This document shows positions 43,798-62,305 of a DNA stretch of 64,000 nt, piece by piece. The notes beneath the pieces were generated by a model. That model worked only from the letters and a program-made list of their open reading frames with translations. It ran no database searches and had not been told where the DNA came from. Position numbers and translations under genes: made by a program. The DNA is from Halobaculum halobium (lineage in GTDB: Archaea > Halobacteriota > Halobacteria > Halobacteriales > Haloferacaceae). Positions within the stretch are counted from its first letter, which is position 1; each line of letters begins with the position of its first letter. Where the stretch lies: NCBI RefSeq assembly GCF_030127145.1, contig NZ_CP126159.1, forward strand, positions 372,001 through 436,000, in the 5' to 3' direction.

Positions 43798-46530
43798 TCA
43801 CGTAGACATCTGTGTGAGGAACTCTCCCGTCGTGGCCGCTTCGGCGTCCTGCACGTACGCGTACGTGCGGAAGGCGACGCGCACGAGCACCAACACAACG
43901 ACGAGTCCATAGGCTCCGATCGCTCCGAAGAGCCCGTATCGACTGATCGTCAGGCGTTCTTCGACTGTCGCCGCACGGTCGGCGGCTGTGCTCGCCTCGT
44001 CGGTCGCCCCGGCCCGCTCGAACCCCTCGACCGAGTCGTCGTACCGACTGTTGATCTGGTCGACCTCTTGGAGCACCGTGTCCGTGCGCGCGGGATTGAA
44101 CACGAGCGGATAACCGGCGAGCACGAGGGTCGCGTTCGAACGGTATCCCGCGTACGCGGAGTCAGCCGTCGCACGGTCACTTGCAGCGTCGTCGACGAGC
44201 GACCGGTAACGCGCCGACGCGTCTTCGTAGCTGGACTGATGTCGCCGTTCGGCCTCCTCGTCGCCGGTGTAATCGGCGAGTTGCATTAGCGCCCGGTGTG
44301 CCTCCGCCGACTCGATCGCCGATTCGTTCGCCTCGGCGACACCGGTGTAGTGCTCACGTTGGGTAGATGCGGTGGCCTCGAACGCTGAATCGGCCGCCGC
44401 GACGCCGCCCTGTGCGGTCGACCGAAGCTCGGGCTGCTCCAGCGACCCGGCGTACTGTCGCATCAGGTCCCGGGCGACTGCCGCCCTCGCGAGCGATCGC
44501 TGTGCCTGTGCGTAGCTTCCGTTTTCCTGTGCCGCCCGAGCGGTGTCGATCGAGTCGACGAACAGCAACGTCGCCCGTCCCGCGGCGAGTCCTCGCGAGA
44601 GGTCAGAGCCGGGAACGTCGGCGTCACCGCGGAGGCGCTCCTCCATCGACAGGAGCATGTCGTTCATCGGTCCGGCCGTGTCGGCTTTCCACTGCTCCTC
44701 TGAGTCGTACGCGCCGAGTGGTTCCGTGATACGATCGAAGCTGTACGGCTTCGCCGCCGCGGTCACGGTGACCGTCTGCGTCTCGACGCCGTCACCGGAA
44801 ATTCGGAAGCGCCAGCGATACTGCTGGTACAGTTCCGCCTGCGTATCGAACTGCAACGCGACGACCATCGGCTTGACCTCTCCAGCCTCGACGGTGCCGC
44901 TGGGTCGGCTGACCACCGTGAGCCAGCGGTCCGGTCCGTCCACCTTCTCCACCTGCAGGTTCTCGATCGACTCGAAGCCGAGCCGCTCGGCCACGTCGAT
45001 CGTCTGTGTGCGGTTCTCGGTGATCGTCACGTCGCCGTACGTGACGGAGTCGGCCACCGCTAGGTCGGGTTCCTGTGCGATCGTCACCGTCCGCGTGATC
45101 GTCTGTGTGCCGGCGTCTTCCGTCCGAACGGTTATCTCGACGTCGTACTCGCCCTCCGGCGTGTCGTCGTCGGCCGAGAGCGACAGGGTCGCCGACCCGG
45201 TCGAGAGGCCGTCGACGGTGTTCGGAAGGTCCGAAACGTCGGCTGTGATGTACTGACTTCCGGACGCCATCGTCGCATCGGCGCTCAAGACGTTCATCTC
45301 CAGGTCGCCGGAGTTGACGATGCCGACCTCCTCACTCGCTTGGAACGTCGAGGTCGAAGCTTTGGGTTCGTCGAACGGAATATCCGGGTCGGACGCCTCG
45401 ACGCGTTCGAGGTTCGCGGGGTAGATCACCCGCCCGGTGACGGTGAACGTGTAGCTGGGCGCGTCCTGCGCCTCGGGCGTCACCCGCACGTCCCACTCCA
45501 GGTCCTCGTGTTGGTCCGCGCTGTCGCGGGCGGACATCGTCGCCGAGACGGTGTCGCTGCCGCCCGGGCTCGTGGTGGCGTACTGGAGGTCATCGAAAGA
45601 GACGCTGCCGTCCGTCTCCGCGCCGATGACCTCGACGTCGAGCCCGTCGAGGCCCTCGTTCCCGGCGACCTCCTGGATCTGGAAGTCGACAGTGCTGGAG
45701 GAGCCAACGAGCACGTCGCCGACGTTCACCTCGTCGTCGGGAACCGAGACGATCGGCGGCTTCACCACATCGACGGAGACGGTCACGTCTCGGGTGTTGC
45801 CGAGGTTGTCCTCCAATCTCATCGTGAAGCTGTACGATCCCGCGGACACGTCGTCGTCTGCGGTGACTTGGATCTCCACGTCGCCCTCGTCGTTCGCGTC
45901 GATCGTGCCGGGGATCGACTCGGTGTCGACGGAGAAGCCCGAGGGAACGTTCGAGAACGTCGCATCGGAGATCACCATCGCCCCCTCGCCCGTGTTCGGG
46001 ACGCTCACGTCGAAGGTACTCGACTGCGACTGGCTGTTGGAATCGTCGAAGACCAACGTCGGGTTCCCGGCGTCAGGGAAGCCGAACTCGGGGTACAGTA
46101 CGTCGACGTACACGTCGAGTCCCTCGGAGTGGGACGCGGCACCCGAGATTTGGGCCGTTCCGGAGTACGTCTGCTCGCTGACTTCTCCGGTCACGATCAC
46201 ATCGTACGTGACCTCGTACTCCGCTCCGGCGACGGCGGTCCAGGAGCTGGAACTCCCGCCGCCACCGCCGCCGGCGTCGATCCGATCCCACGAGTCGAAC
46301 TCGAAGACGACGTTCCCGTTCGCTCGGCTGATCTCGTCGGTCGCCTGGACCGTTCCGTTCGAGTCAGCCGTGAACGTGAACGAGAGCTCGTCGGTCACCG
46401 TCTGATCGGTGAGCGCCGCGTCCGTCTCGACGGTCGTAGAGACGCCGAGGGCCGGCGTCGCCGCGCCGAGCGCGACGACGACCGTCAGCAGGACCGCGAG
46501 GAACGGGACTGACCGCGTCCGGCGGCTCAT
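43798..46530 (-). CDS. Secreted Ig-like-domain protein with C-terminal membrane anchor (tubulin operon)
   Basis: 910 residues from the ATG at 46530, which overlaps the previous stop (ATGA). A signal peptide (residues 1-28, FLAVLLTVVVALGAATPALG) leads into an extracellular region of repeated Ig/CARDB-like beta domains to about 580 (TFDVSVPNTGEGAMVISDAT; STFQASEEVGIVNSGDLEMN). An alpha-helical segment spans about 600-860. One transmembrane helix near 870-890 (YGLFGAIGAYGLVVVLVLV) is followed by a short cytoplasmic tail. It is the last gene of the operon. It may link the membrane-bound machine to the S-layer or another surface structure; that is inference. Confidence 0.85.
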   Translation of the reverse strand: MSRRTRSVPFLAVLLTVVVALGAATPALGVSTTVETDAALTDQTVTDELSFTFTADSNGTVQATDEISRANGNVVFEFDSWDRIDAGGGGGGSSSSWTAVAGAEYEVTYDVIVTGEVSEQTYSGTAQISGAASHSEGLDVYVDVLYPEFGFPDAGNPTLVFDDSNSQSQSSTFDVSVPNTGEGAMVISDATFSNVPSGFSVDTESIPGTIDANDEGDVEIQVTADDDVSAGSYSFTMRLEDNLGNTRDVTVSVDVVKPPIVSVPDDEVNVGDVLVGSSSTVDFQIQEVAGNEGLDGLDVEVIGAETDGSVSFDDLQYATTSPGGSDTVSATMSARDSADQHEDLEWDVRVTPEAQDAPSYTFTVTGRVIYPANLERVEASDPDIPFDEPKASTSTFQASEEVGIVNSGDLEMNVLSADATMASGSQYITADVSDLPNTVDGLSTGSATLSLSADDDTPEGEYDVEITVRTEDAGTQTITRTVTIAQEPDLAVADSVTYGDVTITENRTQTIDVAERLGFESIENLQVEKVDGPDRWLTVVSRPSGTVEAGEVKPMVVALQFDTQAELYQQYRWRFRISGDGVETQTVTVTAAAKPYSFDRITEPLGAYDSEEQWKADTAGPMNDMLLSMEERLRGDADVPGSDLSRGLAAGRATLLFVDSIDTARAAQENGSYAQAQRSLARAAVARDLMRQYAGSLEQPELRSTAQGGVAAADSAFEATASTQREHYTGVAEANESAIESAEAHRALMQLADYTGDEEAERRHQSSYEDASARYRSLVDDAASDRATADSAYAGYRSNATLVLAGYPLVFNPARTDTVLQEVDQINSRYDDSVEGFERAGATDEASTAADRAATVEERLTISRYGLFGAIGAYGLVVVLVLVRVAFRTYAYVQDAEAATTGEFLTQMST

Positions 46531-47528
46531 TGGCCCGGCACCTCCACTGGGTCGCGCGGAACGATCTGTCCTACCTTCGAGCCGTCGACATCCTCGGCCC
46601 ACGTCGCGATCCGCCAACCGAACGCGGCCGCGACGAGTCCGACAATGAGGGCGTACACGAGCGACAGTATCGTCGCGGCCACCGACAGCGAGAACAGCGC
46701 GTCGCTGGTCGCGGTCTCGAGCGTGTTCGCACGCTCGCTCTCGGCGTCGAGGCCGTGCTTCTCGGCCAGTTGGACTGCGACGCCAGCGTCGGCTGTCGCA
46801 GAGCGCGCGTCGGTGTAGGTGCCGAATACGCCTGGACCGAGCGTCGTCATGGCAGCGACGGGCGACCCGCACGCGTCGCCGCAGTCGTCGACGAACGCGC
46901 CGGCGGCGGTTATCGACGACTCCATTCGCTCGCGGTCGGACTCGTAGATCGCTCGAATGCGACTCGCCTCGGCGCTGACGGCCGAATATCGGCTGCTCGC
47001 CCCGGCGGCTTCAAACGCCGACGCGGCGCTCTCGAGGTCTTCGAGTTCGTCCGACGTGTCAGTCGCCTCGCGTGATCGCTCATACAACACCTCGCCGCGT
47101 TGGCGGTAGAACCGCTCGAGGCCGAGGCGTGCCAACGTCGCGTAGTTGTCGCCGTCCGCCGCTTCGAGCTGATCGATCGCTTGTGCGGTGGCATCGGCTC
47201 GCTCGAGGCTCTCATCAGTGCTGTCGTTCTGCGCGGCGCGATAGGCCGCGGAGAACTCCTCGAGCACGGTCACGACCGCGGCCATTCGCTCGCGGTCGGC
47301 TTCTGTGAATTCGCCCGTCTGTACGTCTGTGACCGCCTGTCCGCGCATCACCTCGAATTCGCTGTACGTCGACAGCGCCGGCGAGTCCTCGTATTGCCGC
47401 AGCTCCGCGAGGAACTCGTCGGCCGTCTCGGCGTCCGTCTGGGTCGCCCCGACGGGTACCGTGCCGACGACGAGCAGGAGACACACGGCGATCGTTGCGA
47501 TCGGTGGGGTAAGTTGGTCGGATAACAT
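46527..47528 (-). CDS. Membrane-anchored helical protein (tubulin operon)
   Basis: 333 residues. Signal peptide (IATIAVCLLLVVGTVPVGA), then an extracellular all-helical region with a TPR-like look (ESAASAFEAAGASSRYSAVS) and an isolated Cys pair (DDCGDACGSP) that could form a disulfide. One transmembrane helix lies near residues 280-303, with a short cytoplasmic tail. It has the same layout as its neighbour, a secreted domain anchored at the C-terminus. The stop overlaps the next start by 4 nt, so expression is coupled. No known family is recognised. Confidence 0.82.
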   Translation of the reverse strand: MLSDQLTPPIATIAVCLLLVVGTVPVGATQTDAETADEFLAELRQYEDSPALSTYSEFEVMRGQAVTDVQTGEFTEADRERMAAVVTVLEEFSAAYRAAQNDSTDESLERADATAQAIDQLEAADGDNYATLARLGLERFYRQRGEVLYERSREATDTSDELEDLESAASAFEAAGASSRYSAVSAEASRIRAIYESDRERMESSITAAGAFVDDCGDACGSPVAAMTTLGPGVFGTYTDARSATADAGVAVQLAEKHGLDAESERANTLETATSDALFSLSVAATILSLVYALIVGLVAAAFGWRIATWAEDVDGSKVGQIVPRDPVEVPGQ

Positions 47529-47530
47529 GG

Positions 47531-50413
47531 TCAGTACATCGTCCTGTTGAGTCGGTCGAGCAGCCGCGGGTGTTCGAACAGTTCCGTCACCGCCTCGACG
47601 AATCCAGCGACTGCGAAGACGAACGCGGCGTTGCGCACCTCATCGGACTCTCTCGTCTCGCGTTCGTACTCCCGGAGTTCTTCGAGGACGTCGCCGGCGG
47701 GCGAAATGACGTTCACCTCGCTCCGTTGGTCCTCGACGGTCGATTCAGCTTCTGAGAGCCGCGATTTTAATTCCGCTCGCTGGCCCACGCGGTCGGACGC
47801 CACAAGATCGAAGAGGTCGTCGAGGTCGTAGTCCGCCCGCCATTCCTCGGAGACCCCTCGCATGTCGGCGCACGCGCTGAAGAGGTCGACGTTGTGTTTC
47901 GTGTTCATCGCGTTGTCGACCCCCTCGACGCAGCCGCGCCCAGCCGATACCATCGCGTCGACGACCGGGTCGGGATCGATGCTCGTCTCCGCGAACCGGA
48001 TGCCCGACTCAGGGACCCGTTCGGCGGCGTCGGCCAACGAGCGTGCGACGCTGGCGTAGTACCCGTGAACGGCTGAGTCGAGTCGCCCGCTCGGGACGAG
48101 TTCGTCCGCCTCGCTGCGCAACGCCTCGATTGCTTCCCGCTGTGTCGCCGACAACTGGTACTCGAAGGGCACGTCCAGTGTGACGGCCACCGTGTCGTCC
48201 TCTGGGACCGTGACACGCTGTCGTACCTCCTCGAACGGTGCGGCATCGACCGAGCCGACGAGCGTGTACTCGCCCGCCGGAAGGCCGACCGCGTCGCCGC
48301 CCTCGTCCGTCGGGTTCGACTGCTGGAGCCGCTCGCGCAGCCACTCGTCGTCGGTGTCCAGACTAACTTCGACCGCGTCGGTCGGATCGCCGCCGATGGC
48401 GGTTTCGACTCGGAGCGTCCCGGTCTTCCCGACGACGCGCAGTTCAGACGGGAGGTCGTTCGGGTCGGTCACCCGGCGCGTGTCCGGTTCGTATCGGTCG
48501 TGTTCGGCGGTCACTTCTACGGTGGAGGCGGTTACCGGGAGCGTCAGCGACGCCCGCCCGTTCGCGTCGGTCGGCTCGGAGATCCGCTGACCGTCGAACT
48601 CGGCGGTCACGGTCGCACCCTCCACCGGCTCTCCCGTCTCGTCGATGACGCTGACGTGTTTCGTCACGGGTTGGAAGCTGAGCGTCAGTCGTTCGTCGAG
48701 CAGCTCCGCCGTCTCGGTGACGGTGGCCCCGTTGTAGGAGGCGGTGAACTCGTACGGTTCGGCCTTGAGCGTCCACGTGACGATCCCGCCGTCGACGGCC
48801 TCTTCGCGGCCGCCGCCGTTTCGATTCACGCCGCTGGTCGATGCCGACGACTGTCCCGTCGGGCGCGCGGTCAGGTACACCTCCTCGGAGAGCTGCTCGT
48901 TCGCGAACCCGTCGGTGATCCGAACTCGCACGTCTCGCGTCTGCTGTGTGGCCGCGGCCGACCCGCCGGCGCCCGAACCGCCGCCCATCGACTGTCCGAC
49001 GGCGTATCCGACTCCCAACACGAGAAGCACGATCAGCCCAGCACCCAGCCCGAGCGTGAACTGTCCGAAGGGGATGCCTCCCGAGGAGAATGGCAACAGG
49101 GACGACTCGTTTCCGGTAGATCCGTTCGCCGTTCCGTTCGTGTCGGGCGATGGATCGGTAGCCGGCTGGAGCGATGACAGCTCACCGCCGTCGCCGACGC
49201 TGACGGTCGTCGCCGGCGCGTCGGCAAACGCGACGACCATCCGGTAGGAGCCGGCCGGGTTCAGTTCGGATTCGTTCGGGAGCCCGGACAGTGAGAGCGT
49301 CGCGCCGTCGACCGACGCGTCACTCATGACGCTGACCTCACTCGATGTAGCCAGGAGGACGAACGAGACAGCACCACCGCTGAACGGGCCGTCTTCGAGC
49401 GACACGCTACGGTTCCCTTCGTTGACGGTCGCGGTGTTCGGATCAGTGTCGTTGTAGGTCGGAGACACCACAGACGACCCCGCAGTTGTGACGTCGACAG
49501 CGACGCTGTCGGCGCCAGCGAGGTACTCGTTCTCGACGGTCACCGACGTGACGCCGTCTGTCTCGCGTGCGGACGTGGTGGCTGCGTACTCGCCGTCCGG
49601 TCCGGTCGTGGTGAGGTGAACGCCGTATTCAGTGCCGCCGACCAACAGCGGCGACTGGACCGTCACGCGCCCAGGGGACACGAGGACTGTCGCGGGGCGT
49701 GCCGCGTCCGCGAGCGACACGTCCGTATTGCCCGAGAGCGACGGGCCGCCGTCGGTAGCCGCGAGCGTCAGGGTCGCCGGCGGGGTCAGTAGCCCGGTAA
49801 ACGCGTCGTTGCGGTCTATCGTGACAGTACCGTTGTCGAGCGTCGCCGAGAGCGTCGCAGAGCGACCGTCGCCGGCGGCGGTCGCCGCCAGTTGGAACGA
49901 CGACCCGTCGAGCCCGGCGGTGTCGTTCGTCGCCGTCAGGGTGAGCCGTCCGCTGTCGTCGAAGGACGCGCTCGCTGCGGTGTCGAGGTGCCGGAGGTCG
50001 ACGCCCTGTTCGGTGAGATAGTCGGTTCCGTTGCCGCCCTCGGCCGAGACCGTGATCGTAGTGTTCGCGAGCGGGAAGTCGGGGAGGTCACCTGACGCGA
50101 TCCGGTAGCGGTACACGTCGTTCGAGTTCGGATTTTCGGCCGTCGTGGTAACGGTGTCTTCCCCGCCGGACGACTCGAACAGGACGTTCACCGCCGACTC
50201 GTTCCCGACGCGCTCGGCATCGAGTTCGAATCGGAGCGCTCCCGAGTCCGCCTGGCTGAGATCACCGGCCGCCGTCACCGTCCCCGACTCAGTCAGCCCG
50301 TCGGCCGTACTAGCGCCAGGCGCTGCGACCGTTGCCGCGGCCGTCGCCGGCCCGGCGACGAGTCCGATCGCGAGGAGTGCCACGAGCACCGACTGAAGCG
50401 TCTTCGTTCCCAT
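47531..50413 (-). CDS. Large membrane protein with extracellular beta and cytoplasmic carboxypeptidase-regulatory-like domains
   Basis: 960 residues from the ATG at 50413 (MGTKTLQSVLVALLAIGLVA, signal peptide). Residues 30-430 are a secreted, Thr/Ser/Gly-rich beta region. A single TM helix lies near 447-467 (FTLGLGAGLIVLLVLGVGYA). After it come Ig/CNA-B or carboxypeptidase-regulatory-like repeats (KHVSVIDETGEPVEGATVTA; LRVVGKTGTLRVETAIGG) and a helical C-terminus to 960. Having such beta repeats on the cytoplasmic side is unusual. It lies 5 nt from the tubulin-like gene upstream. It may be the transmembrane link between the filaments and the surface. Confidence 0.82.
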   Translation of the reverse strand: MGTKTLQSVLVALLAIGLVAGPATAAATVAAPGASTADGLTESGTVTAAGDLSQADSGALRFELDAERVGNESAVNVLFESSGGEDTVTTTAENPNSNDVYRYRIASGDLPDFPLANTTITVSAEGGNGTDYLTEQGVDLRHLDTAASASFDDSGRLTLTATNDTAGLDGSSFQLAATAAGDGRSATLSATLDNGTVTIDRNDAFTGLLTPPATLTLAATDGGPSLSGNTDVSLADAARPATVLVSPGRVTVQSPLLVGGTEYGVHLTTTGPDGEYAATTSARETDGVTSVTVENEYLAGADSVAVDVTTAGSSVVSPTYNDTDPNTATVNEGNRSVSLEDGPFSGGAVSFVLLATSSEVSVMSDASVDGATLSLSGLPNESELNPAGSYRMVVAFADAPATTVSVGDGGELSSLQPATDPSPDTNGTANGSTGNESSLLPFSSGGIPFGQFTLGLGAGLIVLLVLGVGYAVGQSMGGGSGAGGSAAATQQTRDVRVRITDGFANEQLSEEVYLTARPTGQSSASTSGVNRNGGGREEAVDGGIVTWTLKAEPYEFTASYNGATVTETAELLDERLTLSFQPVTKHVSVIDETGEPVEGATVTAEFDGQRISEPTDANGRASLTLPVTASTVEVTAEHDRYEPDTRRVTDPNDLPSELRVVGKTGTLRVETAIGGDPTDAVEVSLDTDDEWLRERLQQSNPTDEGGDAVGLPAGEYTLVGSVDAAPFEEVRQRVTVPEDDTVAVTLDVPFEYQLSATQREAIEALRSEADELVPSGRLDSAVHGYYASVARSLADAAERVPESGIRFAETSIDPDPVVDAMVSAGRGCVEGVDNAMNTKHNVDLFSACADMRGVSEEWRADYDLDDLFDLVASDRVGQRAELKSRLSEAESTVEDQRSEVNVISPAGDVLEELREYERETRESDEVRNAAFVFAVAGFVEAVTELFEHPRLLDRLNRTMY

Positions 50414-50418
50414 TTCGA

Positions 50419-51617
50419 TCACCTCGCGTTTATCGACACGTAGCGTTCGAGGTTCTCTGACAGGTCGGCGACGTGGGCCTCGGAGATGGCGTCTTCGGGC
50501 GTGTTGCCGAGTTGGCGAGCCGCCTCGACGTTCTGCTTGTGGGTTTCGAAGGCGTCCCGCGAGTGATCGAGCAGCGGGTTCAGATCGAACCCGCCGAGCA
50601 ACACAAGCACGTCGACGTCGTTGCCGCGGGTCTGCTTCGGCGTGAGCGTCGTCATCCCGACGGCGCCGCCGATGTCGTTGTCCCGCTTCCACTCGCCGAA
50701 CGCCGACTGGATCCCCGTCTCCGTGATGTCGCCCGACTCGATGAGCTGTTCGGGCGCACGAACGACTGCGTACGCCGCCCGCGAGGTCGTCACGTCCATC
50801 GGGACGAACGTCTGCTCGGCCGCGCGGTCGAACATCAGTTCGTACTCGAGCATCCGTCCGTTGAGTCCGGTCGCGACGGCGGGCGTGAAGTGGTACGCCC
50901 CGATGTTCGACGGCTGGGCGACGTAGTCCTCAACGTCGATGACGCCGCGGGCCTCGCGCCCGGCGCTGATGAACAGGTCGATCGCGGTGACGATCCGGTC
51001 GTTGACCGCGTCATAGCTTCCTTGGGTCCCGTCACCGTCGAGGTGTGAGTTACTCGCCAGCAACACCATATCGGCGTTCTGCTGACCGTCGCGTCGCATC
51101 AGGAGCCTGGACAGCCCCATCACGGCGTTAAACTGGCGCTGTGCGGGTTCGTCGTAGTACGGCCACGCCGCAAGCGCGACGTGAACGACGCTGTCCATCC
51201 ACGGCCGGAGGTTCGACGCCTCAGATCCGCCCGACAGTTGCTCGATCAGGTACGGGATCGAGCCGTTGCCGGTGCCGCCGCCGAGCGTCGTCATGTGCAT
51301 GAACGCGTCGGCACCCGTCATCCGCTCTTGAATGTCGCCAGTGATGAGGTCGATGTCCTCGCGGGCGCACTCTTCGCCCGCGATGAAGTTGTTGCCAACG
51401 CCGCGCTTCGAGCCAAACACCGTCGTGTACTCGGAGGTATCGTCGAGTGACGCCCGCTCGATGGTGTTCAGGATGTCCGCGCGGTTCGTGTTCAACAGTG
51501 CGATCCTGTCGTCGATTCCGGGATTTTCCTCGCGTGCGAGCAACTCGGCCGCGATCCGGCCGCCGCCCTCCCCCGACGAGATAACCCCCAGCGAGTGAAC
51601 GTGTCCGCCCGGGACAT
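50419..51617 (-). CDS. Tubulin/FtsZ-superfamily protein 3 (apparent frameshift near 51587)
   Basis: About 399 residues if repaired. From the ATG at 51617, which overlaps the previous stop as TGATG, the frame reads MSRADTFTRWG and then loses sense. Adding one G to the GGGGG run (51585-51589) continues it as VISSGEGGGRIAAELLAREE. That is the N-terminal nucleotide-binding loop the family should have. The uninterrupted part contains the tubulin signature GGGTGNGS (51261-51286) and a T7-like D-x-x-D in GVIDVEDY (about 50928-50948). It is the most divergent of the three tubulin-like proteins and probably binds GTP. It is embedded in the membrane-protein operon. Not canonical FtsZ1/FtsZ2 or CetZ. 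Confidence 0.85.
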
Positions 51618-53701
51618 CAGGCGCTCACCCCGGTCTCGTCGGCGTCGACATCCACGTCGAGTTCGCGCAACGTCGTGCGGATGAGGTCATCTGAAGCCGG
51701 TACCGAGAGGAACTTCCGCCGCATTTCGTCGTATGTCATCGTATCGCCGTCACTCAGGTTGTGGGTCGTGATCGTGTCTAGGCGGGACCGGAACTGGTCG
51801 TGGTCGTACACGAGGACGCGCCCGTCGTCAAGCGCCGCCTCGTGGCCCTCCTCCTCGGCCCATAGCACGAGCAGACAGGGGACGTACTCGTCGGCAACCG
51901 GGATGTCCGACTCCGGCGTGAGGTACTCGTCGGCGGCGAATCCGGTCTCCAACTTCGGCGCCACCGTCGGGAGTTGGCTCCGCACGTCCTCGGCGTTCCC
52001 GCCGCAGACGCGTTCACGGAGCCCGACTTCTTCGAGCACGAGTTCGACGGACTCGTCGTCGGCCACTTGGATCGTTTCCGCTTGGTCGGCGAACTCCTCG
52101 GTCGGGGTACTCCCCGACACCGTGTACTCTCCGTAGGGGACATCCTCGAACGTCGATTCCGTGGCCACGTACGTGCTCGCCGTCTCGCGTTCATCGACGC
52201 CGTCGCCCGATAGCTCGATCACCAGTTCGTGTTCGTCCCCGGTCGAGGTCGCCAACTGCGCAGTGACAGTTACGTCGAACGACTCACCGCCGCCGTCGAC
52301 GACGACGGCTGGCACCGACGGATCGAACTCGACCTCCGACTCCCCTTCGGCGTATAGTTCGAGGAACGGGGTCGGATCGCGGACCGGGAGGTCGTCGCCG
52401 GTCACGCGGCCGTCCGTTCGGATCCCCTCGTCGATCCGGTCTTCGACCATATCGTACGAGTCGGCCACCGACGCTTTCGTCTCTGCAGCCTCGACCGCTT
52501 CCGTCAGCTCACCCGCGGCCGCGAGCCACTCCTCGCGGAACGCGTCGAGGTCCTCCGTCTCCCGTAGTCGCGCCTCGAAGTCGGTTGCGACTGCCGGCGG
52601 CGCCGTGTAGAAGCCGACCGGCACGTTCGCCTCGCGGATCACCTCGACGTCGGTTTCGAGCTCCGTTTCCAGCGTCGCGACGACGCTCGTGGCCGCGCGA
52701 CGGACATCCTCACCGACCGCGTCCAGTTCGTCGCTGGCGAGCGCCGAGTCGATGCCCGCGAGCGTCTCGCGCGCCTCTTCAACCGTCCGGAGGTCCTCGT
52801 CGGCCGCGTAGCGGTCGACGTCGACGGAGTCGATCGTCGACAGGAGCTTGTCGATGCTCTCGCGATCGGCGGTGAATGCCGCACTCACCTCAGATTCGGC
52901 GTCACCCTGGGCGTCTGCGATCGCGGCGCTCGCCCCGTCCCAGTCGGCGTCCTCGATACACTCGCGTGCGGTGTCGAGGTGCGACTCGATCCGCGCGGCG
53001 TCGCCGTCGTACTCGTCGACGGTCGCTTCGATGCGGTCGACTGCGTCCTCGAACACTCCCGCGGCTTCCTCGCGTGCCGTCGAGACGGCCCGCTCCGTCT
53101 CCTCGGGAGTCGCGCCGGCGGGCACGTTGTCCGACGTCATCGAGATCGGCACCCCGGTACCGTCGAGGACGGACTCGTTCACCGAGCGCGCCCCCTGCCG
53201 GGCGTGTTCGATCTGCGACCGTCCGAACTCCGCGAACGATTCGTCGCGGTCGTCGGCAAACGCGCTCACGTCCGCTTGGAGCTTGTCGAACTCCTGGACC
53301 CGGCCGGGCGAATCGACCGAGATCGTCGCCGCCGAGACGTCGACCGCGACGCCGGCGTCCGCGAAATCGTCGGCGATCTGGCGTGCCCGCGTTTCGAGTT
53401 CCCCGGGTTCCCATCGGTCATGGGTAGCCGTGAGCCCGTTGTACGTCGTCAACTCGGTTCGAAACGCCTCGGCGGCCGCGCGGGCGGCTTCCTGTACGAA
53501 ATCGCCTTGGCTCGTGTTGTCGCGCGTGAGCACCCCGCGGACGTACAGTCCGATAGACGCGACGACCGCCAGAGGCGCGCCGACGCCGATGACGTACACC
53601 CCGATCTGTGAGCCGAAATAGAGGAACGAAACCAGACCCACGAGTGCGGTCGCGAGAACGATACCACCGATTCCGAGTGCTGCCTTGTACTGTCGCTTCA
53701 T
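51617..53701 (-). CDS. Membrane-anchored coiled-coil protein (tubulin operon)
   Basis: 694 residues. Two transmembrane helices at the N-terminus (about 8-30 and 34-55) are followed by a long soluble region. Residues 65-420 are acidic, helical and coiled-coil-like (TAREEAAGVFEDAVDRIEAT; ESIDKLLSTIDSVDVD). Residues 450-560 form an Ig/PEGA-like beta domain (STFEDVPYGEYTVSGSTPTE), and the last 120 residues look like a winged helix (DTMTYDEMRRKFLSVPASDD). The soluble part is probably cytoplasmic and could recruit the adjacent tubulin-like protein. It overlaps its neighbours at both ends, so the order is functionally tight. Family not recognised. Confidence 0.82.
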   Translation of the reverse strand: MKRQYKAALGIGGIVLATALVGLVSFLYFGSQIGVYVIGVGAPLAVVASIGLYVRGVLTRDNTSQGDFVQEAARAAAEAFRTELTTYNGLTATHDRWEPGELETRARQIADDFADAGVAVDVSAATISVDSPGRVQEFDKLQADVSAFADDRDESFAEFGRSQIEHARQGARSVNESVLDGTGVPISMTSDNVPAGATPEETERAVSTAREEAAGVFEDAVDRIEATVDEYDGDAARIESHLDTARECIEDADWDGASAAIADAQGDAESEVSAAFTADRESIDKLLSTIDSVDVDRYAADEDLRTVEEARETLAGIDSALASDELDAVGEDVRRAATSVVATLETELETDVEVIREANVPVGFYTAPPAVATDFEARLRETEDLDAFREEWLAAAGELTEAVEAAETKASVADSYDMVEDRIDEGIRTDGRVTGDDLPVRDPTPFLELYAEGESEVEFDPSVPAVVVDGGGESFDVTVTAQLATSTGDEHELVIELSGDGVDERETASTYVATESTFEDVPYGEYTVSGSTPTEEFADQAETIQVADDESVELVLEEVGLRERVCGGNAEDVRSQLPTVAPKLETGFAADEYLTPESDIPVADEYVPCLLVLWAEEEGHEAALDDGRVLVYDHDQFRSRLDTITTHNLSDGDTMTYDEMRRKFLSVPASDDLIRTTLRELDVDVDADETGVSA

Positions 53702-54741
53702 AGAATCACCGCCAGGAGGTCACCGCCGCCGAGGACCGCGCCGGCCGCCGCCGTGAGCAGCGCCACCGCGCCGACGGCCAGCGGAACCGCGATCTGCTTC
53801 GGGCTGTACTGGGTTGCCGTCGAGACACCGCGGTCGATCTCGATTTTCTCTAACGTCCGTCGGGCGAGGAAGTATCCCAGGCCCCCGCCGACGACAAGTC
53901 CGCCGACCAGCGAGCCGACGAGGACAAGCCGGACGGTGTTTGCCGCGCGTTCCCCGCGCTGTTCGAGCGCGACGAGATACGCCTGCAGGTTCTCGCGAGT
54001 CGTCTCGCGGGTGGCCGAGCGCGATGTTCTGACGCCGTCGATCACCGTCCGCGCGTCCTCGGCATCGCCCGACTCGGCGGCAGCGAACGTCGCCCGTTCG
54101 AGCTGCTGGCCGGCGGTCGTTAGGTTGGCTTCCTCGATGGTCGCCAGTCGGTCGGCCGGGTCGGTCTCGAGCGCGTTGTCGTCTTCGGCCGCCGCTGCGA
54201 GCGCTGCCGAGGCGTTTCTCATGGCCGAGCGCCGAGTCTCGAAGGTCTCGTTCGCATTCCGGTACGCCTCCAAATCCGACTGAGAGCCGAACTGGAGGGT
54301 AACTGGCTCGCCGTCAACAGTTGTAGTGGTCGCGTACCCCTGCTGGATACCGATCGTCGGTCCGCCAAGGTCTGCCTTCTGCGTGACCGCATCCGCGAGT
54401 GCGACCGAGTCTGCGTCGGCAGTGGCGCGGACGACGACGCTCTCCTCACGCTCCGTCTGAACGTCGATACCCTGTACTGCGCCCGCGTCGAAGCCCCAGG
54501 CCACGTCGTACGGCTCGGGCTCGCCGCTGGAACAGACGTACAGCGTCAGCGTCGTCTCCGGGTACACCGTCGCGTCTCCGACGCGGTCGTCAGTGTCGTA
54601 GTAGGCTACGAGCCGGTTGTCATCAACGCCCGCACACGGTGCGTTCGGGCTCGCGGCCGCCGCGGCGCCGGCAGGTCCGACTGCGAGCGCGACCGCGAGG
54701 AGCGCTACCGTGAGCGCGACGCCAGTTCGCGTGCGGGTCAT
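53698..54741 (-). CDS. Small secreted/membrane protein with two C-terminal TM helices (tubulin operon)
   Basis: 347 residues from the ATG at 54741. Signal peptide (TVALLAVALAVGPAGAAAAA), an extracellular domain with two Cys (PCAGVDD and LYVCSSGE) that may pair, then a helical segment. Two transmembrane helices sit near 275-297 (LVLVGSLVGGLVVGGGLGYF) and 322-345 (VPLAVGAVALLTAAAGAVLG). It overlaps the following gene by 4 nt. No known family; the repeated secreted-plus-anchor layout suggests one envelope-spanning assembly. Confidence 0.8.
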   Translation of the reverse strand: MTRTRTGVALTVALLAVALAVGPAGAAAAASPNAPCAGVDDNRLVAYYDTDDRVGDATVYPETTLTLYVCSSGEPEPYDVAWGFDAGAVQGIDVQTEREESVVVRATADADSVALADAVTQKADLGGPTIGIQQGYATTTTVDGEPVTLQFGSQSDLEAYRNANETFETRRSAMRNASAALAAAAEDDNALETDPADRLATIEEANLTTAGQQLERATFAAAESGDAEDARTVIDGVRTSRSATRETTRENLQAYLVALEQRGERAANTVRLVLVGSLVGGLVVGGGLGYFLARRTLEKIEIDRGVSTATQYSPKQIAVPLAVGAVALLTAAAGAVLGGGDLLAVIL

Positions 54742-54742
54742 C

Positions 54743-55030
54743 TCAGCGCATCCCCCGGTTCCGGTACGCGAACACCGCACCGCCGATGGCGCCGACCCCG
54801 ACGCCGAGGCCGCCGCCGAGAAGCGCCGGCGAGAGGGGAAGCGACGCCATGGATACCGCGGCGTTCGTCTCCTCGTGCTGACTTGTGATCTCGTCGGTGA
54901 GCGTTGCGATCGTCGGAGTGTCATCGGCGGACTCTTGGGCGAGGCCAGGCGCCGCGAACACGCCGCCAAGCAGGATCAGTCCGACCGCGAGAAGCAGTGC
55001 GACGCCGCGCGTACTGTCGACTCCCTTCAC
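54743..55030 (-). CDS. 95-residue signal-plus-TM mini-protein (tubulin operon)
   Basis: 95 residues. An N-terminal signal or first helix (GVALLLAVGLILLGGVFAAP), a short extracellular Thr/Glu-rich stretch, then a glycine-rich transmembrane helix (ALLGGGLGVGVGAIGGAVFA) and a basic tail YRNRGMR. It overlaps the upstream tubulin-like gene by 4 nt and lies 1 nt from the next gene. Glycine-zipper helices of this kind can oligomerise. Function unknown. Confidence 0.78.
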   Translation of the reverse strand: MKGVDSTRGVALLLAVGLILLGGVFAAPGLAQESADDTPTIATLTDEITSQHEETNAAVSMASLPLSPALLGGGLGVGVGAIGGAVFAYRNRGMR

Positions 55031-56190
55031 GGCGTCACCCCCGCCGCGTGCTCGGCTGCGAGGTCTTCGATCTCCGACAGCCGAGAGATGTCCTCACGAG
55101 CGAACGTCAACAGCGTCGTGAACGACGCGAGGTTCCGCTTCGTTAGCGTCATCCCGATGTTGACCTCTGGGCAGTACGAATCGAGCAGTCCCCGGATCAC
55201 CGACACCTGGATCCGGTAGTCATCGTCGACCAGGTACGGCGCCGGCGCTCGAACCTGCCCGATCGCTTTGACCGCGTCCGCTGGACTCACGTCCTCGACG
55301 CTACGCTTCGAGACGGCCAGTCGAGAGAGCGTCGCCCCGTCGACCGATTTGCGCCCGATGAACGGAAGGAGATAGCCGGGGAGCGAGCGCGTCATCGTGA
55401 CCGATCGGCCGAGCGTCGCGTAGCCGACATCACCGTCGTCGAGCGTGAGTGACGTGACCACGTCCTGCAGGTCGATGACAGGTGCGTCGAGATCGTCGTA
55501 CTCGCCGGGGTTGATCCGCTCGAGGATCGGCCCGGAGATGAGGTCGACGATGGCCGAGGCCGCGTAGTCGTTGTACTCGTTGAACCGCCCCTCTGCGGCG
55601 TCCTCGTACGCGAGCCGCTGGTTATCGATGAGGATCACGCCGTCGACGTGCTCCTCGAGACGGTCGAGCCCGTAGATCGCGTTGGTCGCCTGTCGCGTGG
55701 CACTGGGCCCGTCATCGCCCGTCACTTGGCCCGCGGTGTTCGGCAGCACCGCGACGGCGATGATGTCAGTCGAGGACCCGCCGTACTCGCGGATCGCCTC
55801 CGCGAGATGCGGTGCGATCCCGCAGCCGGTGCCCCCACCCAACCCGAGGAACAGGAACGCGAACGGCGGTGAGCCGTCGCCGAACCGCTCTTCGTAGGCG
55901 TCGACCAGCTGCGGCTGCTGGCCGGCGAGTGCGGCGTCAGCCTTCTCCGGGTCCCGGCCGAATCCGCCGGTCACCTCTTCTTCGAACCCAGCCGTCGTGC
56001 CGGGCACGAGTCCGCTCCCCTCTGAGACACCATACCACGCCTCCCGTTCGATATTCGAGAGGTTTTGGAGGTCCCGTATCGTCGAATTGAACGCGATTGG
56101 CGTGGCCAGCTGGGCGACCCGCTGATGACTGAACACCGAATCCACCAGCGAACACCCGGCCTGACCAGCGCCGACAAAGAGATATGGCAT
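55027..56190 (-). CDS. Tubulin/FtsZ-superfamily protein 2
   Basis: 387 residues. The Rossmann-like start MPYLFVGAGQAGCSLVDSVF carries the first nucleotide loop, and the tubulin signature GGGTGCG is at 118-124. The T7-loop equivalent APVIDLQDVVTSL keeps D240 and D243, matching the two acidic residues of NVDFADV in FtsZ that trigger GTP hydrolysis in the neighbouring subunit. The fold is full length but too divergent for FtsZ1, FtsZ2 or CetZ, and there is no FtsZ-type C-terminal tail. Probably a GTP-dependent polymerising protein. An 80-nt gap upstream separates it from the preceding gene. AGGT lies five nt before the ATG. Confidence 0.88.
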   Translation of the reverse strand: MPYLFVGAGQAGCSLVDSVFSHQRVAQLATPIAFNSTIRDLQNLSNIEREAWYGVSEGSGLVPGTTAGFEEEVTGGFGRDPEKADAALAGQQPQLVDAYEERFGDGSPPFAFLFLGLGGGTGCGIAPHLAEAIREYGGSSTDIIAVAVLPNTAGQVTGDDGPSATRQATNAIYGLDRLEEHVDGVILIDNQRLAYEDAAEGRFNEYNDYAASAIVDLISGPILERINPGEYDDLDAPVIDLQDVVTSLTLDDGDVGYATLGRSVTMTRSLPGYLLPFIGRKSVDGATLSRLAVSKRSVEDVSPADAVKAIGQVRAPAPYLVDDDYRIQVSVIRGLLDSYCPEVNIGMTLTKRNLASFTTLLTFAREDISRLSEIEDLAAEHAAGVTP

Positions 56191-56270
56191 TGTCTACCTG
56201 TGTCTGACTTTTGGTAACGTCGACATAACTCTACCGTCACCTGTACACATTGCGATAACTGGAGTCGTGA

Positions 56271-57761
56271 TCACCCGCGGAGTTGTCTGAGCATCACGCT
56301 GTACTCGTTCCGTTCGTACAGCGCCTCGACATGGTCGAGCAGGTCGTCGGTCGCCGTGGCGATCCCCTCAGCACGTGCCCGCTCGCCAGCCATGAGTGAC
56401 TCGCGTGCGCGCTCTTCTAACGACTCCGTCAGCGACACGAAAAACATCGGGATGCTGTGGTTGTGGTCGGTCCGCGAGTCGACGTACCGCGTTCTGATCT
56501 CTTGTCTGCGTTCTTCCAACGCGTCGACAGCTGCACTAGCGTCGTCGGCCACCGTCCCCTCGGGTGCACTATCAGCGGTCGGTCCGTCCGTCTCTGCGGT
56601 GCTATCGGCCGTTCCCGATTCGAGCACCGGGACCAGATCGCGTTCGTAGAAGGCGACCTCCTCACGGATCGCGTACGGGACCACCGTGTTGCTTTCGTCC
56701 GCGCGCTCCAGCATGGCGTCGAGCCGGTCGGCGCGGTTGTCGAGCGCGTCTGCGACGGGGCCGTCGATTCCGGACACTGTCTCCCCGAGTGACTGGACCC
56801 GGGCCGACACGTCGGCGGGGTCGACGTCGACGGTGAGGTTACGCACCGTTGCGGCCTCGTTGAGCGCATCGACGCCCGCACGGAGCGCGTCGGCGACCTG
56901 CTCGGTGTCGTCGCTGGCGACGCCGTCGAGCAGATCCCGCGCCGGCTCGCACTCGGCACGATTGGTACCGCGGACGCGACGCGCCGCCTCCGCACCCGGC
57001 GCGTCAGCGGCGGAATCGGAGTCGGAGTCCGCGGCGGCCTCCGCGAGGTGCTCGATCCGATCGACCAGCGTCGCATCCCGTTCAGGGGTGGGGGAATCGG
57101 TGCGCTCGAGCGCGCGGTCGACGGCGACACGCGCATCCTCGATCTCCGTCGCCGCCGTCTCGTCGCCCCGGTCGCCCGCGGCTTCCGCCAGACGGGCCAC
57201 GTCGGCGGCGAGGTCGTCGTCGACGCCAGTCAGTCGACCGGCAGTCCGATCCGGGTCACCGGGTTCGAGCGCGCGGTCGATATCGTCGGTCGCCTCAAGG
57301 CGCTCAACGGCGGCCGCTATCGCCTCTCGGAGCGCCCCTTCTCCCGTGGCCGACGGCGTCGCGAGCGCATCGAGCAGCGCCGCGGATCGATGCCCCGTCG
57401 GTCGCTTCGATCGCGACACGTCCTCTGCGACGGAGGCGACGACGCCGTCGTCCTCGGATCCGCCCGCGGCGTGACTCTCCGAGGCGGTGCGATCGATGCT
57501 GAGCTGCCCTCGATCGACCAGCGTCGCAAGCTCCCGCGCCTTTGCGGCGGGCGGGGCGTCGTTCTCGACGCGGCCGTCAGGGCCGGCGATATCGGCGGCC
57601 GCCGCCAAGCGGTCCATCGACTCCGCGAGTTCGTCGAGCGTCCGTTTTACGTCGCCCTCGGTCGGGCGGGAGCCGAGACGATCGGCGATCGCCTCGATAT
57701 CCGGGTCGTCGGAGCCGCCGAACAGGCCCATGAACACGGCCGCAATAGGTGGTCCCGACAT
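56271..57761 (-). CDS. Uncharacterised acidic helical protein (tubulin operon)
   Basis: 496 residues, soluble, very acidic, Ala/Asp-rich and almost entirely helical. It starts near MGLFGGSDDPDIEAIADRL; the ATG at 57731 could be the true start, and 57761 is the most upstream one, 3 nt after the previous stop. There is no catalytic motif. The last 150 residues hold the best-defined blocks (YAIREEVAFYERDLVPVLES; EERARESLMAGERARAEG). Lying between two tubulin-like genes, it is a candidate filament-binding or regulatory protein. Family not recognised. Confidence 0.8.
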   Translation of the reverse strand: MSGPPIAAVFMGLFGGSDDPDIEAIADRLGSRPTEGDVKRTLDELAESMDRLAAAADIAGPDGRVENDAPPAAKARELATLVDRGQLSIDRTASESHAAGGSEDDGVVASVAEDVSRSKRPTGHRSAALLDALATPSATGEGALREAIAAAVERLEATDDIDRALEPGDPDRTAGRLTGVDDDLAADVARLAEAAGDRGDETAATEIEDARVAVDRALERTDSPTPERDATLVDRIEHLAEAAADSDSDSAADAPGAEAARRVRGTNRAECEPARDLLDGVASDDTEQVADALRAGVDALNEAATVRNLTVDVDPADVSARVQSLGETVSGIDGPVADALDNRADRLDAMLERADESNTVVPYAIREEVAFYERDLVPVLESGTADSTAETDGPTADSAPEGTVADDASAAVDALEERRQEIRTRYVDSRTDHNHSIPMFFVSLTESLEERARESLMAGERARAEGIATATDDLLDHVEALYERNEYSVMLRQLRG

Positions 57762-57764
57762 GGG

Positions 57765-59387
57765 TCACAGCATGTTGGACCGGCCGAGGCAGTCGAACAG
57801 CGGCTGCACCTCGTTCCACACGTCGCGGATGTCCTCCGCCTGCACGCTCTGGCCCTCGTCCTTCAGGCGCTTGGCGTGCTCGTACATTGACTCCAGCGAC
57901 GGCATTCGGGGGTTCCACAGCGTCCCCCACATGAACACGTCGTCGAGGTACGGGATGACGAGCTGGTTCACCTGCACGTCCACGGTTTCGACGCCCGAAC
58001 GAGTGCCGGCGTCGAGGAACTCCTCGCCGTTGAGGATTTCCTGGAGCGTCCCGTCGGTGACGTACTCGGAGATGTCCGACATCTGCTCCTCCGGCCCGTA
58101 GATCATGAAGTTGCCGCCCCACGCCGTCGAGGGATCGAAGTCCGCGAGCCGGTTTTGCAACAGCGTGTTACGCGCGAGCAGTTCGAGGCTGGACTCCGAG
58201 ATGTCGTCCGAACGGAGGCGTCCCAGCGCGGGCGCGAGCACGACCGCCGGGCGTTCCTCGGGCGCCATGTCGTGCGGGTACTTGTCTTCGACCAACCGGA
58301 AGCTGTCGGCCACGTCGAAGACGCTCCCGCGGATGCTCATCGTCGCATCGCGGTCAGTGAGCTGCGGCGTCGAGGACATGGTAAACGCTTCGAGAAACGC
58401 CACGAGCGGCTTATTGAGGTCCGAGAACTCGGGCGGGTTGTACCGGTCGATTCCCTCGATCCGCGGGTGGATGTCGGTGCTCGCTTGGCGGAGGTGGTCG
58501 TTGTTGAACGGGATGATCGCGTCGGCCGACCGCGAGATGCGCGACAGGCCGATCACGCCGTTCGTCTTCGCGCGGCCGCCGACGGCGGACTGTTGACCCC
58601 CTTCCGACGGGATGACGACCGAGCTGAGAATCGCCTGGTCGATGACGAGGCCCGACTCTTGGACCTCCTCTCGGAGCTTCTCGGCGATGACCGGCGTCGC
58701 GCCGCACCCGGTTCCTTTCGTGACGCTGTGGACGAGCATCACCGCTTGCGCGTCGCGGATGTCCTGACTCGTCATGTCCCAGCGGTCGCGGAAGGGGTTG
58801 CTTCCGTCGGCGAAATCGGCCTCGGCAACCTTCGCGCCGTTGCTCCATCGGTATCCCATCCCGCTGTACCCGTGTTTGCCGAACCCGATGATCGAGTTCG
58901 ACAGCAGGTCGTTTCGGGAGTACTCTTTCAGCTCCTTCGTGTAGTAAGTCTGTTCCAACTCTGCGATGTTGGTGTTGAGCAGGCCGTAGCCCGCGAGCCC
59001 GCCCTGCCAGATTCGGGCGCGGTCCTCGTGGTTGCGCGCGAGCGTGTCGCGGCGCATCAACACGGCGTCGACGATGTTGTTCCCCGCGCCGCCGATCCCG
59101 ATCAGGAACCACTTGCGACCGTACATCTCGCCGTCGTCGTCCATCGATACCGGGCCGAGGTCATCGGCGCCGCCCGGGTCACCCGGAGCGTCACCGCCCG
59201 AGGGATCGGGGCCGTCGGCGTCGGCGACCGCGTCCGCGCCGTCCTCGAACAGGCCCGCGAACCGGTCACCGTAGATGGCTCGGACCGATGGCTGCGCGTC
59301 ACCGTGAGCGTGCAGCAGGTGTTCTTCGATGGTATCTGTCTCCCAGTCCGCCGGTTCGGTGTAACATATCTCGCAAGATTCGGTCAT
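57765..59387 (-). CDS. Tubulin/FtsZ-superfamily protein 1 with N-terminal zinc-finger-like segment
   Basis: 540 residues. Residues 1-30 carry a C5-x2-C8 ... H23 ... H28 arrangement (CEICYTEP; EEHLLHAHGD) resembling a C2H2 zinc finger. An Asp/Gly-rich linker spans 45-90. Residues 92-540 form a tubulin-like domain: WFLIGIGGAGNNIVDAVL near 93-110, the glycine loop KGTGCGAT at 224-231, and a T7-like GSVFDVADSF with D358 and D361. Inserts make it longer than FtsZ. It probably binds GTP and polymerises, with the finger as a docking site. It follows the membrane coiled-coil gene by 22 nt. Confidence 0.88.
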   Translation of the reverse strand: MTESCEICYTEPADWETDTIEEHLLHAHGDAQPSVRAIYGDRFAGLFEDGADAVADADGPDPSGGDAPGDPGGADDLGPVSMDDDGEMYGRKWFLIGIGGAGNNIVDAVLMRRDTLARNHEDRARIWQGGLAGYGLLNTNIAELEQTYYTKELKEYSRNDLLSNSIIGFGKHGYSGMGYRWSNGAKVAEADFADGSNPFRDRWDMTSQDIRDAQAVMLVHSVTKGTGCGATPVIAEKLREEVQESGLVIDQAILSSVVIPSEGGQQSAVGGRAKTNGVIGLSRISRSADAIIPFNNDHLRQASTDIHPRIEGIDRYNPPEFSDLNKPLVAFLEAFTMSSTPQLTDRDATMSIRGSVFDVADSFRLVEDKYPHDMAPEERPAVVLAPALGRLRSDDISESSLELLARNTLLQNRLADFDPSTAWGGNFMIYGPEEQMSDISEYVTDGTLQEILNGEEFLDAGTRSGVETVDVQVNQLVIPYLDDVFMWGTLWNPRMPSLESMYEHAKRLKDEGQSVQAEDIRDVWNEVQPLFDCLGRSNML

Positions 59388-59409
59388 TTTGTATACTCAG
59401 TGGATACGG

Positions 59410-61326
59410 TTACGTGTACTTTTCGCGGAAGCGCCGGTGCGCCGTCGACATGGATCGCTCGATCGACGCCCCGTCCGCGGGCGTGAACTCGATGAACCCG
59501 GGCGGTTCGGGGCTCTGTAAGTCGACGGCCTCGAACAGATCGGACTGCCGCCCGGCGAATCGCTCGACGTTGACGAGCACGTCCGGCGTCGCGACCGCCT
59601 CCGGGAGGTCTTCGAGCCGGAACTGGACGATCCGGTCGTCGCCGTCGGCGGCACGCTCGAACTCGCGGAACGCGTACAACACGCCGTCGACGACCTCCTC
59701 CGGCGAGGCGACGCGAACCGACTCTCGCCCCGAACCGGTCCCGACAGTGTCGGGCTCGTTCGATGGACCGTCGCGATCGCCGGTGTCGCCCGAATCGAGG
59801 TCGTTCACAGCGTCTACTTCGGTTGATGATTCCGACTCGCCTGCGACCGCGTCGTACGTGAACGTGATTCGACCGCCGGCAGCGTCGATAGTCGCGTCGA
59901 CGCCGTCGTACCCGGCCCTGATGGCGGGAAGGATCGCCTCGAGGTATCCGTCGGGTATCTCCGTTGGGATCGAAACGGTGGCGTGACGAGCGTCGATCGT
60001 CGCCTCCAGTGTCGACACCAACTCGGCCGTCGTGACGAGCGTCGCCGCCTGCGTGGCGGCGTCCTCGGCGGTCGACAGCGCGTCTTCGAACTGGCAGTCG
60101 TGCAGGGATTCGCGCGCGCTATCGAGTTTCGATCGGACGTCGCGTGCGCCGACGAGATCGGGGTCGCGTCCGGCGAGCAACACCTCGTCGATCCGATCTC
60201 GGAAGGGAACATCCATCGCTCCGATCTGTTCGTCGAGCGTGTCGAGGCGGGCCTCGGTCGTCGAAATCGCTTCGACGACTGGCGCCTCCCGCTCGCGGAC
60301 GTGCGCTCGGACACGCTGCCGGTGCGCGTCGACCGCCTCGACCGCCGCGGCGACGGCGCCAAACGAGTTGGCTGTCCGCGTCAGCGACTCGAGTTCCTCG
60401 TCGACGTGATCGAGGTGGACTGCGTCCGCACCGCCTGGGATCGACACCTCGCGGTGCTTCGTCGGGAGGTTGACTGTTCGGTAGCGGTCGCCGTATTCGG
60501 AGCTGACGATGAACTCACCGTATTCAGTTCGGATACCGCTGGCGAGCGCCTGCCGGAGGCGCTCGGTGAGCTCTTCGATTCGGGCGTCCGGATCGACGCC
60601 GTCGATCTCCGACTCGACGCCGGCACGGGCTGCCTGGGCCGCCTCGCCGTCGGACATCGACCGGATCTCGGCGATGTCTTCGTCAATCCCGTCCAGGCGA
60701 GCGCGGAACTCATCGGCTCCCTCTCGAACGTCGCGAACGCCGCCGGGAGCGACGTTCGAGAGCGTTTCGAGCCCCTCGAATCGCGTGTCGAAATCGGTGT
60801 TGAACGCGGACCGGCGATTCGCGAGGTCAGCCTCCAGCCGTCCGAGGTCGTCGCCGGTCTCCTCGAGTACTACCTCATTCCACGGGTACGTCCCGACAGC
60901 GACCAACTGTAGCGCGGCCGCGCACACCGGAACAGCGTAGAACGCACCGAGCTGGACGAGCGGGATATCAGCCGAAGTCAGCGGTGCGTACACGCCGAAA
61001 AACAGCGCGAAGAACAACACCGACGAGAGCGTGGCTGCCCCGTAGGCAGCCTCTCTGTGTTCGACGACCAGCATCGCTGCTCCCTGCGCGGCCCACGCAA
61101 GCGCGATAAGCAGGAACAACCCCATTACGACCGCCGAACTGTTCTTGAAAACCACCGCCGCCTCGAACAGCACCGGGATAGACAACACCGGCTCGGCGAT
61201 GGGCGTGAGTCCCGCAGAGCTCGACGTGTAGCCGAACAGCGCCAACAGTGTTTGCACGAGCGCGATCACGAGGGGAACGCCCGCCGCTCCCCAGGCGATC
61301 GTTTGTCCGTGCGCGGTTCTAGGCAT
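59410..61326 (-). CDS. Multi-TM coiled-coil membrane protein, first gene of the tubulin operon
   Basis: 638 residues. About four hydrophobic helices in residues 8-150 (GVPLVIALVQTLLALFGYTS; VMGLFLLIALAWAAQGAAML) are followed by a large cytoplasmic part. Residues 155-445 are helical and coiled-coil-like (GRLEADLANRRSAFNTDF; TTEARLDTLDEQIGAMDV) with an embedded small beta segment (EYGEFIVSSEYGDRYRTV). The C-terminal region (510-638) is acidic. A clear TATA box lies 31 nt upstream, making this the likely first gene of an operon reaching to 43798. A membrane platform for the tubulin-like proteins is the simplest inference. Confidence 0.85.
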   Translation of the reverse strand: MPRTAHGQTIAWGAAGVPLVIALVQTLLALFGYTSSSAGLTPIAEPVLSIPVLFEAAVVFKNSSAVVMGLFLLIALAWAAQGAAMLVVEHREAAYGAATLSSVLFFALFFGVYAPLTSADIPLVQLGAFYAVPVCAAALQLVAVGTYPWNEVVLEETGDDLGRLEADLANRRSAFNTDFDTRFEGLETLSNVAPGGVRDVREGADEFRARLDGIDEDIAEIRSMSDGEAAQAARAGVESEIDGVDPDARIEELTERLRQALASGIRTEYGEFIVSSEYGDRYRTVNLPTKHREVSIPGGADAVHLDHVDEELESLTRTANSFGAVAAAVEAVDAHRQRVRAHVREREAPVVEAISTTEARLDTLDEQIGAMDVPFRDRIDEVLLAGRDPDLVGARDVRSKLDSARESLHDCQFEDALSTAEDAATQAATLVTTAELVSTLEATIDARHATVSIPTEIPDGYLEAILPAIRAGYDGVDATIDAAGGRITFTYDAVAGESESSTEVDAVNDLDSGDTGDRDGPSNEPDTVGTGSGRESVRVASPEEVVDGVLYAFREFERAADGDDRIVQFRLEDLPEAVATPDVLVNVERFAGRQSDLFEAVDLQSPEPPGFIEFTPADGASIERSMSTAHRRFREKYT

Positions 61327-62295: not shown

Positions 62296-62305
62296 AGACC
62301 CGTCG

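Follow-up and report, generated by a model that had tools for sequence, protein, structure and literature searches.

Among archaeal tubulin relatives, a role has been studied for FtsZ1 and FtsZ2, which act in cell division, and for CetZ, which acts in cell shape and motility. The catalytic contribution of the T7 loop is described for FtsZ of S. aureus, in which D210 and D213 of the upper subunit's T7 hold the catalytic water over the GTP of the lower subunit (PMC8936486). Alpha/beta tubulin has one silent interface, owing to a Lys in the T7 of beta (PMC13394414). A divergent FtsZ-like gene with membrane-protein neighbours, FtsZl1 (Pfam Tubulin_2), was proposed to belong to a membrane-remodelling system; its product is about 1000 amino acids long, contains a coiled coil and has no recognisable T6-H7 (Makarova and Koonin 2010, PMC2875224). 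Among Halobacterota, a CetZ-like group called 'Halo.Tub' occurs in several copies arranged in quasi-tandem, with coiled-coil proteins as neighbours (Santana-Molina et al. 2023, PMC9871819).

We analysed a stretch of 64,000 nucleotides, referred to here as the window, from a haloarchaeon near Halobaculum gomorrense and H. saliterrae. Three tubulin-superfamily genes, designated P1, P2 and P3, are located in one operon with genes for membrane and secreted proteins.

Operon structure and tubulin-superfamily genes

The contig reads as a circular replicon of approximately 408 kb. Positions 45354-64000 of the window are repeated at G000:C2:9000-27643, at an offset of 408,355 bp, and the two copies differ by five 1-base indels only. 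This repeat of the contig start at the contig end is assembly redundancy of an uncircularised replicon. False frameshifts arise from the redundant copies: P3 is broken in the window and P1 in the other copy. In the window, one base is missing from P3 near 51584 and there is no proper start, whereas in the second assembly copy the gene is full-length (399 amino acids, ATG...MSRADTFTRWGVISSGEGGG) and its T1 loop is complete. The ATG of P3 overlaps the TGA of the upstream E694 gene.

The genes from 61326 down to 43798 are co-directional, and nearly all of them overlap or lie a few to about 80 bases apart. They are as follows (TM, transmembrane).

A638, 59410..61326, minus strand: membrane protein; hydropathy predicts about 4-6 TM helices at the N-terminus, followed by a long soluble tail
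P2, 57765-59387, minus strand: 540-aa tubulin-superfamily protein; T1 GGAGNN, T4 TKGTGCG, putative T7 pair D358/D361; PF00091 E=1e-13
B496, 56271..57761, minus strand: soluble protein, mostly helical by inspection, with the C-terminal ~150-230 residues conserved
P1, 55027-56190, minus strand: 387-aa tubulin-superfamily protein; T1 GQAG, T4 GGGTGCG, T6 DNQR, T7 pair D240/D243; PF00091 E=4e-14
C95, 54743..55030, minus strand: small protein predicted to lie in the membrane (signal/TM and a C-terminal TM), overlapping the P1 stop and the next start
D, 53698..54741, minus strand: signal peptide-like sequence at the N-terminus and two TM helices at the C-terminus; start MTRTRTGVAL
E694, 51617..53701, minus strand: N-terminal TM helices, a long middle part and a C-terminal beta domain (CarboxypepD_reg/SpaA-like in orthologs)
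P3, 50419-51617, minus strand: 399-aa tubulin-superfamily protein, frameshifted in the window and intact in the redundant copy (L009)
F, 47531..50413, minus strand: signal peptide, extracellular part, one central TM and a soluble part with CarboxypepD_reg (Ig/transthyretin-like); PF13620 E=8e-9
H333, 46527..47528, minus strand: signal peptide and C-terminal TM
I, 43798..46530, minus strand: signal peptide, long extracellular beta-rich part and C-terminal TM; Ig-like DUF1573/HYDIN-type matches in the Methanoperedens ortholog

Pfam searches of the membrane partners detected little beyond Ig-like domains. A PADLOC scan of ten proteins for a defence system gave zero matches. Viral origin or spread was rejected after scanning viral contigs with the P1 and P3 alignments, in which no relative was detected. 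Directly upstream of the operon lies a divergent gene on the plus strand (window 61480-62295) that resembles a NosL-type lipoprotein and carries a CDVCGM motif.

The GTPase domain PF00091 matched all three tubulin-like proteins, with 53.7, 52.2 and 40.5 bits against a cut-off of 33. The whole-chain tubulin fold with H7 and the C-terminal domain was recognised by structural models for P3 and P2 (Z 39.1 and 32.1, respectively) and by profile only for P1. P1, P2 and P3 are members of the tubulin/FtsZ/CetZ superfamily.

Position and conservation of the acidic pair

An earlier note, made from the letters of this DNA, had pointed out D-x-x-D segments at D240/D243 of P1, at D358/D361 of P2 and in VIDVEDY of P3. 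All of these were read in the ORFs at the following positions.

P1 T7 pair D-L-Q-D, codons 240-243, 55462-55473, minus strand: VIDLQDV; D240 at 55471-55473 and D243 at 55462-55464
Putative P2 T7 pair D-V-A-D, codons 358-361, 58305-58316, minus strand: VFDVADS; D358 at 58314-58316 and D361 at 58305-58307
P3 T7 pair D-V-E-D, codons 228-231 in full-length numbering, 50926-50937, minus strand: VIDVEDY; D228 at 50935-50937 and D231 at 50926-50928

The P1 profile aligned through T7 with the CetZ1 structure 4b46, with D240/D243 on D215/E218. PDB entries 4b46 and 4b45 are CetZ1 and CetZ2 of Haloferax volcanii, and E218 is the T7 mutant site of CetZ1. The D215/E218 pair of CetZ1, like D210/D213 of S. 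aureus FtsZ, extends into the nucleotide pocket of the adjoining subunit. In hhalign comparisons with the CetZ family, both P1 (E=3e-24) and P3 (E=6e-19) placed the first Asp on Asp and the second on Glu, and the acid pairs were matched likewise between the P1 and P3 families. As judged by profile alignment, the P1 pair is located at T7.

For P3, an AlphaFold model was made on the H. gomorrense ortholog (pLDDT 86.7, pTM 0.90). It aligned with OdinTubulin over 358 residues (VIA Z 39.1) and comprised H7 at 202-218, D228, H8 at 229-238 with high confidence, and strand S7 at 243-253. Because the pair is sited between H7 and H8 in the model, where T7 belongs, and falls on the CetZ acids in hhalign, the P3 pair is the T7 pair. 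P3 was misaligned with FtsZ alone but aligned with CetZ. When P1, P2, P3, CetZ and FtsZ were aligned together in four MAFFT modes, the five acid pairs shared the same two columns.

The assignment is less direct in P2. Its AlphaFold model had a pLDDT of 66.9 and a pTM of 0.71 and matched CetZ2 over 325 residues (VIA Z 32.1); D358 was placed just ahead of H8 (359-369), as in P3, in a stretch whose pLDDT was about 44-54. The expectation that each segment is followed by the next helix was thus borne out in the P3 model with high confidence and in the P2 model at this low local confidence. It is quite improbable that the P2 D-x-x-D is not T7, with the true T7 at 346-349 or lost and the conserved DSFR segment serving another role. 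Such a reading could draw on the low local pLDDT and on the shift of the motif in profile and pairwise MAFFT alignments with CetZ: the D-x-x-D was put elsewhere when P2 was aligned with CetZ by itself, and likewise in one of the two modes used to align it with FtsZ only. Pairwise hhalign placements of P2 with CetZ, FtsZ and P1 were in conflict, and a direct hmmsearch of P2 against PDB sequences gave an alignment that ended short of T7. However, residues 346-349 of P2 are not conserved, and the distance from D361 to strand S7, about 20 residues, leaves room for helix H8, while from 346 it would exceed 30. In addition, the acids fell in one column pair when P2 was aligned with P3, with P3 and CetZ, with P1 and P3, or, in four MAFFT modes, with all five families. 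D358/D361 is therefore probably T7 of P2, on the basis of the larger alignments, the P3 profile, the spacing and the low-confidence model.

We then compared the relatives of each protein, taken from the 30 of 293 genomes of the order with strong P1 matches and from named genomes (Halobaculum, Halorussus, Halopenitus, Halovenus, Haloquadratum, Halorubrum, Natronomonas, Natrinema, Halobiforma, Halobellus, Haloarchaeobius and Candidatus Methanoperedens). Asp was present at both positions in 53 of 54 aligned relatives of P1 (45 distinct sequences), the single exception being D240E, and in every aligned relative of P2 (46/46; 36 distinct) and P3 (53/53; 42 distinct). Among all (i,i+3) residue pairs, the T7 pair was the sole one acidic in every row for P1 and for P3, and one of two such pairs for P2. 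Relatives down to about 40-45% identity retained the pair, which indicates selection rather than recent descent. The T7 acids are under strong purifying selection, and P1-P3 are therefore no degenerate relatives without T7.

P2 has several peculiarities. Its N-terminus (window 59300-59387) has C2H2-type zinc-finger spacing, C-x2-C-x14-H-x4-H, and C5, C8, H23 and H28 are invariant in the aligned P2 relatives; as read from this motif, P2 is a zinc-finger/tubulin fusion. T4 is TKGTGCG in P2 versus GGGTG(S/C/N)G elsewhere (GGGTGCG in P1, GGGTGNG in nearly all P3), with T-K where G-G is expected and K224 invariant in the P2 alignment. The T7 loop of P2 is about 11 residues longer than that of P3.

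The earlier note had proposed a T7-type catalytic pair in all three proteins by comparison with FtsZ. This held for P1 and P3 by profile alignment, P3 model topology and the all-family alignments, and is likely on weaker grounds for P2, but the nearest T7 is that of CetZ, not FtsZ. Its contrast between active GTPases and degenerate relatives was upheld as far as the T7 acids are conserved in all three, with the reservation that P2, given its T4 and longer T7 loop, is no plain copy.

Distribution of the operon and predicted activity

Of 293 genomes of the order, 30 carry the operon, counted by strong P1 matches. The P1/P3 core was also found in Candidatus Methanoperedens with recognisable E, F, H and I partners, a similar two-TM gene replacing D. 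At two of these loci (L086 and L092), the H and I homologs are on the opposite strand, and at L086 an S-layer protein gene lies beside the cluster. P1 and P3 occurred together in every complete locus seen. A638, P2 and B496 (window 56271-61326) were jointly absent from genome G132, from Halobellus and from Methanoperedens, all of which retain P1, P3 and the membrane genes, and A638 was missing wherever P2 was missing. Two tubulins therefore make up the core, and the third belongs to a module.

GTP binding and a tubulin fold alone are no proof of polymerisation. P1-P3 are nevertheless likely to be active, polymerising GTPases, and we consider it fairly probable that three ancient tubulin families in one operon, each with a complete GTP-binding core and T7 acids, form head-to-tail GTPase polymers coupled to an envelope apparatus. 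GTP hydrolysis, filaments, mixed filaments, membrane coupling and the cellular role are what we infer, as follows. P1, P3 and, where present, P2 would bind GTP and stack head to tail. The T7 of each subunit would complete the GTPase site of the subunit below, and GTP hydrolysis would drive turnover of the polymer. Because T7 acids act on the nucleotide of the neighbour and are conserved in all three families, each of P1-P3 may serve as the upper, activating subunit. T7 conservation argues for this activating role; GTP hydrolysis by the same protein, or homopolymers, would not follow from it. With acidic T7 loops in all three, the silent alpha/beta-type interface would have no counterpart, and every interface could hydrolyse GTP in any subunit order. 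The polymer, or a switch, would be linked to the membrane and secreted proteins that the operon encodes and would form the cytoplasmic part of an apparatus that spans the envelope.

A more specific version of this proposal is tentative at best: an envelope-spanning machine driven by a mixed two- or three-tubulin filament, all of whose longitudinal interfaces are catalytic, with the zinc-finger protein P2 as an optional component that docks or caps the P1/P3 polymer. Somewhat more plausible, though still short of an even chance, is a division of labour in which P1 and P3 are polymerising GTPases and P2 is a tubulin serving as cap, nucleator or adaptor, whose T7 activates a neighbour, whose own nucleotide site is altered and whose zinc finger docks. 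P2 alone has TKGTGCG with the invariant K224, the longer T7 loop and the C2H2-type motif, and it is P2 that is lost with A638 and B496 while P1 and P3 stay; however, T1, T3, T6 and T7 of P2 are conserved as in P1 and P3, suggesting that its own site still binds nucleotide. We regard it as unlikely that the proteins are GTP-dependent switches that assemble no further than dimers or small oligomers at a membrane complex, with T7 acids serving dimer-dependent hydrolysis and no filaments. The small, fixed gene set with membrane partners is consistent with such switches, but nearly the entire chain, with its full tubulin fold, matches protofilament-forming tubulins and CetZ.

Three further, deeply separate families, encoded alongside surface and membrane proteins in a single operon, point to an unstudied cytoskeletal system of haloarchaea and of Candidatus Methanoperedens, which oxidises methane. 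Through the conserved T7 acids, it can be tested directly whether these proteins form GTP-hydrolysing filaments, and whether mixed tubulin polymers exist in which every interface is catalytic.

Comparison with known tubulin-like families

In a tree with FtsZ and CetZ, P1, P2 and P3 formed separate clades (SH-aLRT 100 each) with stems of 1.9-2.7 changes per column. CetZ formed one group excluding P1-P3 (SH-aLRT 92), in what was a quick tree with long branches. From these sequence relationships, P1-P3 are best described as three anciently separated, non-canonical members of the superfamily, not CetZ in the strict sense. Two other divergent sequences were observed. A further tubulin-like protein of the same genome (L006, G000:C1:885389), with a 485-aa open frame and T7 VLDASEL, falls within the CetZ group on a long branch. 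At G138:C8:32727-33383, a partial P3-like match scored 94 bits, where the P3 family scores at least 300 and CetZ no more than about 65; it possibly represents another paralog family.

The literature that we searched contained no study of the three families, of the two-module operon or of the T7 conservation. 'Halo.Tub', compared here by its description, probably includes one or more of the P1-P3 families; in the available portion of PMC9871819, no analysis of T7, operon architecture, membrane partners or three families was found.

P1-P3 share the GTP-binding loops and D-x-x-D at T7 with FtsZ1 and FtsZ2, both of which the same genome encodes at other sites. In the FtsZ T7, N-x-D-F-A-D, an Asn stands two residues before the first Asp; this Asn is absent in P1-P3, which have V, T, D, M or other residues there. 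Canonical FtsZ was ruled out by this absence and by NCBIfam TIGR00065 scores of 46.5, 32.7 and 28.0 bits against a cut-off of 295.2.

The operon resembles FtsZl1 in that divergent FtsZ-like genes lie beside membrane-protein genes. It differs in that P1-P3 have T6-H7-T7, and a vWA protein was not recognised among the scanned operon proteins. FtsZl1/Tubulin_2 was ruled out by PF13809 scores (23.0 and 14.5 bits and no match for one protein, against a cut-off of 27) and by the presence of T6, H7 and T7.

P3 aligns with tubulin and OdinTubulin from end to end, the two C-terminal helices included, and the operon shares with BtubAB and AtubAB the presence of several tubulin genes, although there are three paralogs here, not two. 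The identity to these tubulins is 16%, and no member here has the interface-silencing Lys. The eukaryote-type alpha/beta asymmetry was not found, the catalytic T7 position being acidic in every row of all three families.

Among the closest known systems is also CetZ, which is archaeal, has the same fold, is among the top sequence matches for P1 and P3 and is the best Foldseek match for P3 and P2. The T7 of CetZ, V-V-D-S-S-E, and those of P1-P3 share the form V-x-D-x-x-(E/D) without the FtsZ Asn. In the CetZ set, however, T7 reads V-x-D-x-x-E-(I/V/L), with Glu as the second acid, which is Asp in every aligned row of P1-P3. P1-P3 lie outside the sampled CetZ clade and, unlike CetZ, are encoded as a set of three in an operon with membrane proteins; P2, in addition, has a zinc finger and TKGTGCG.
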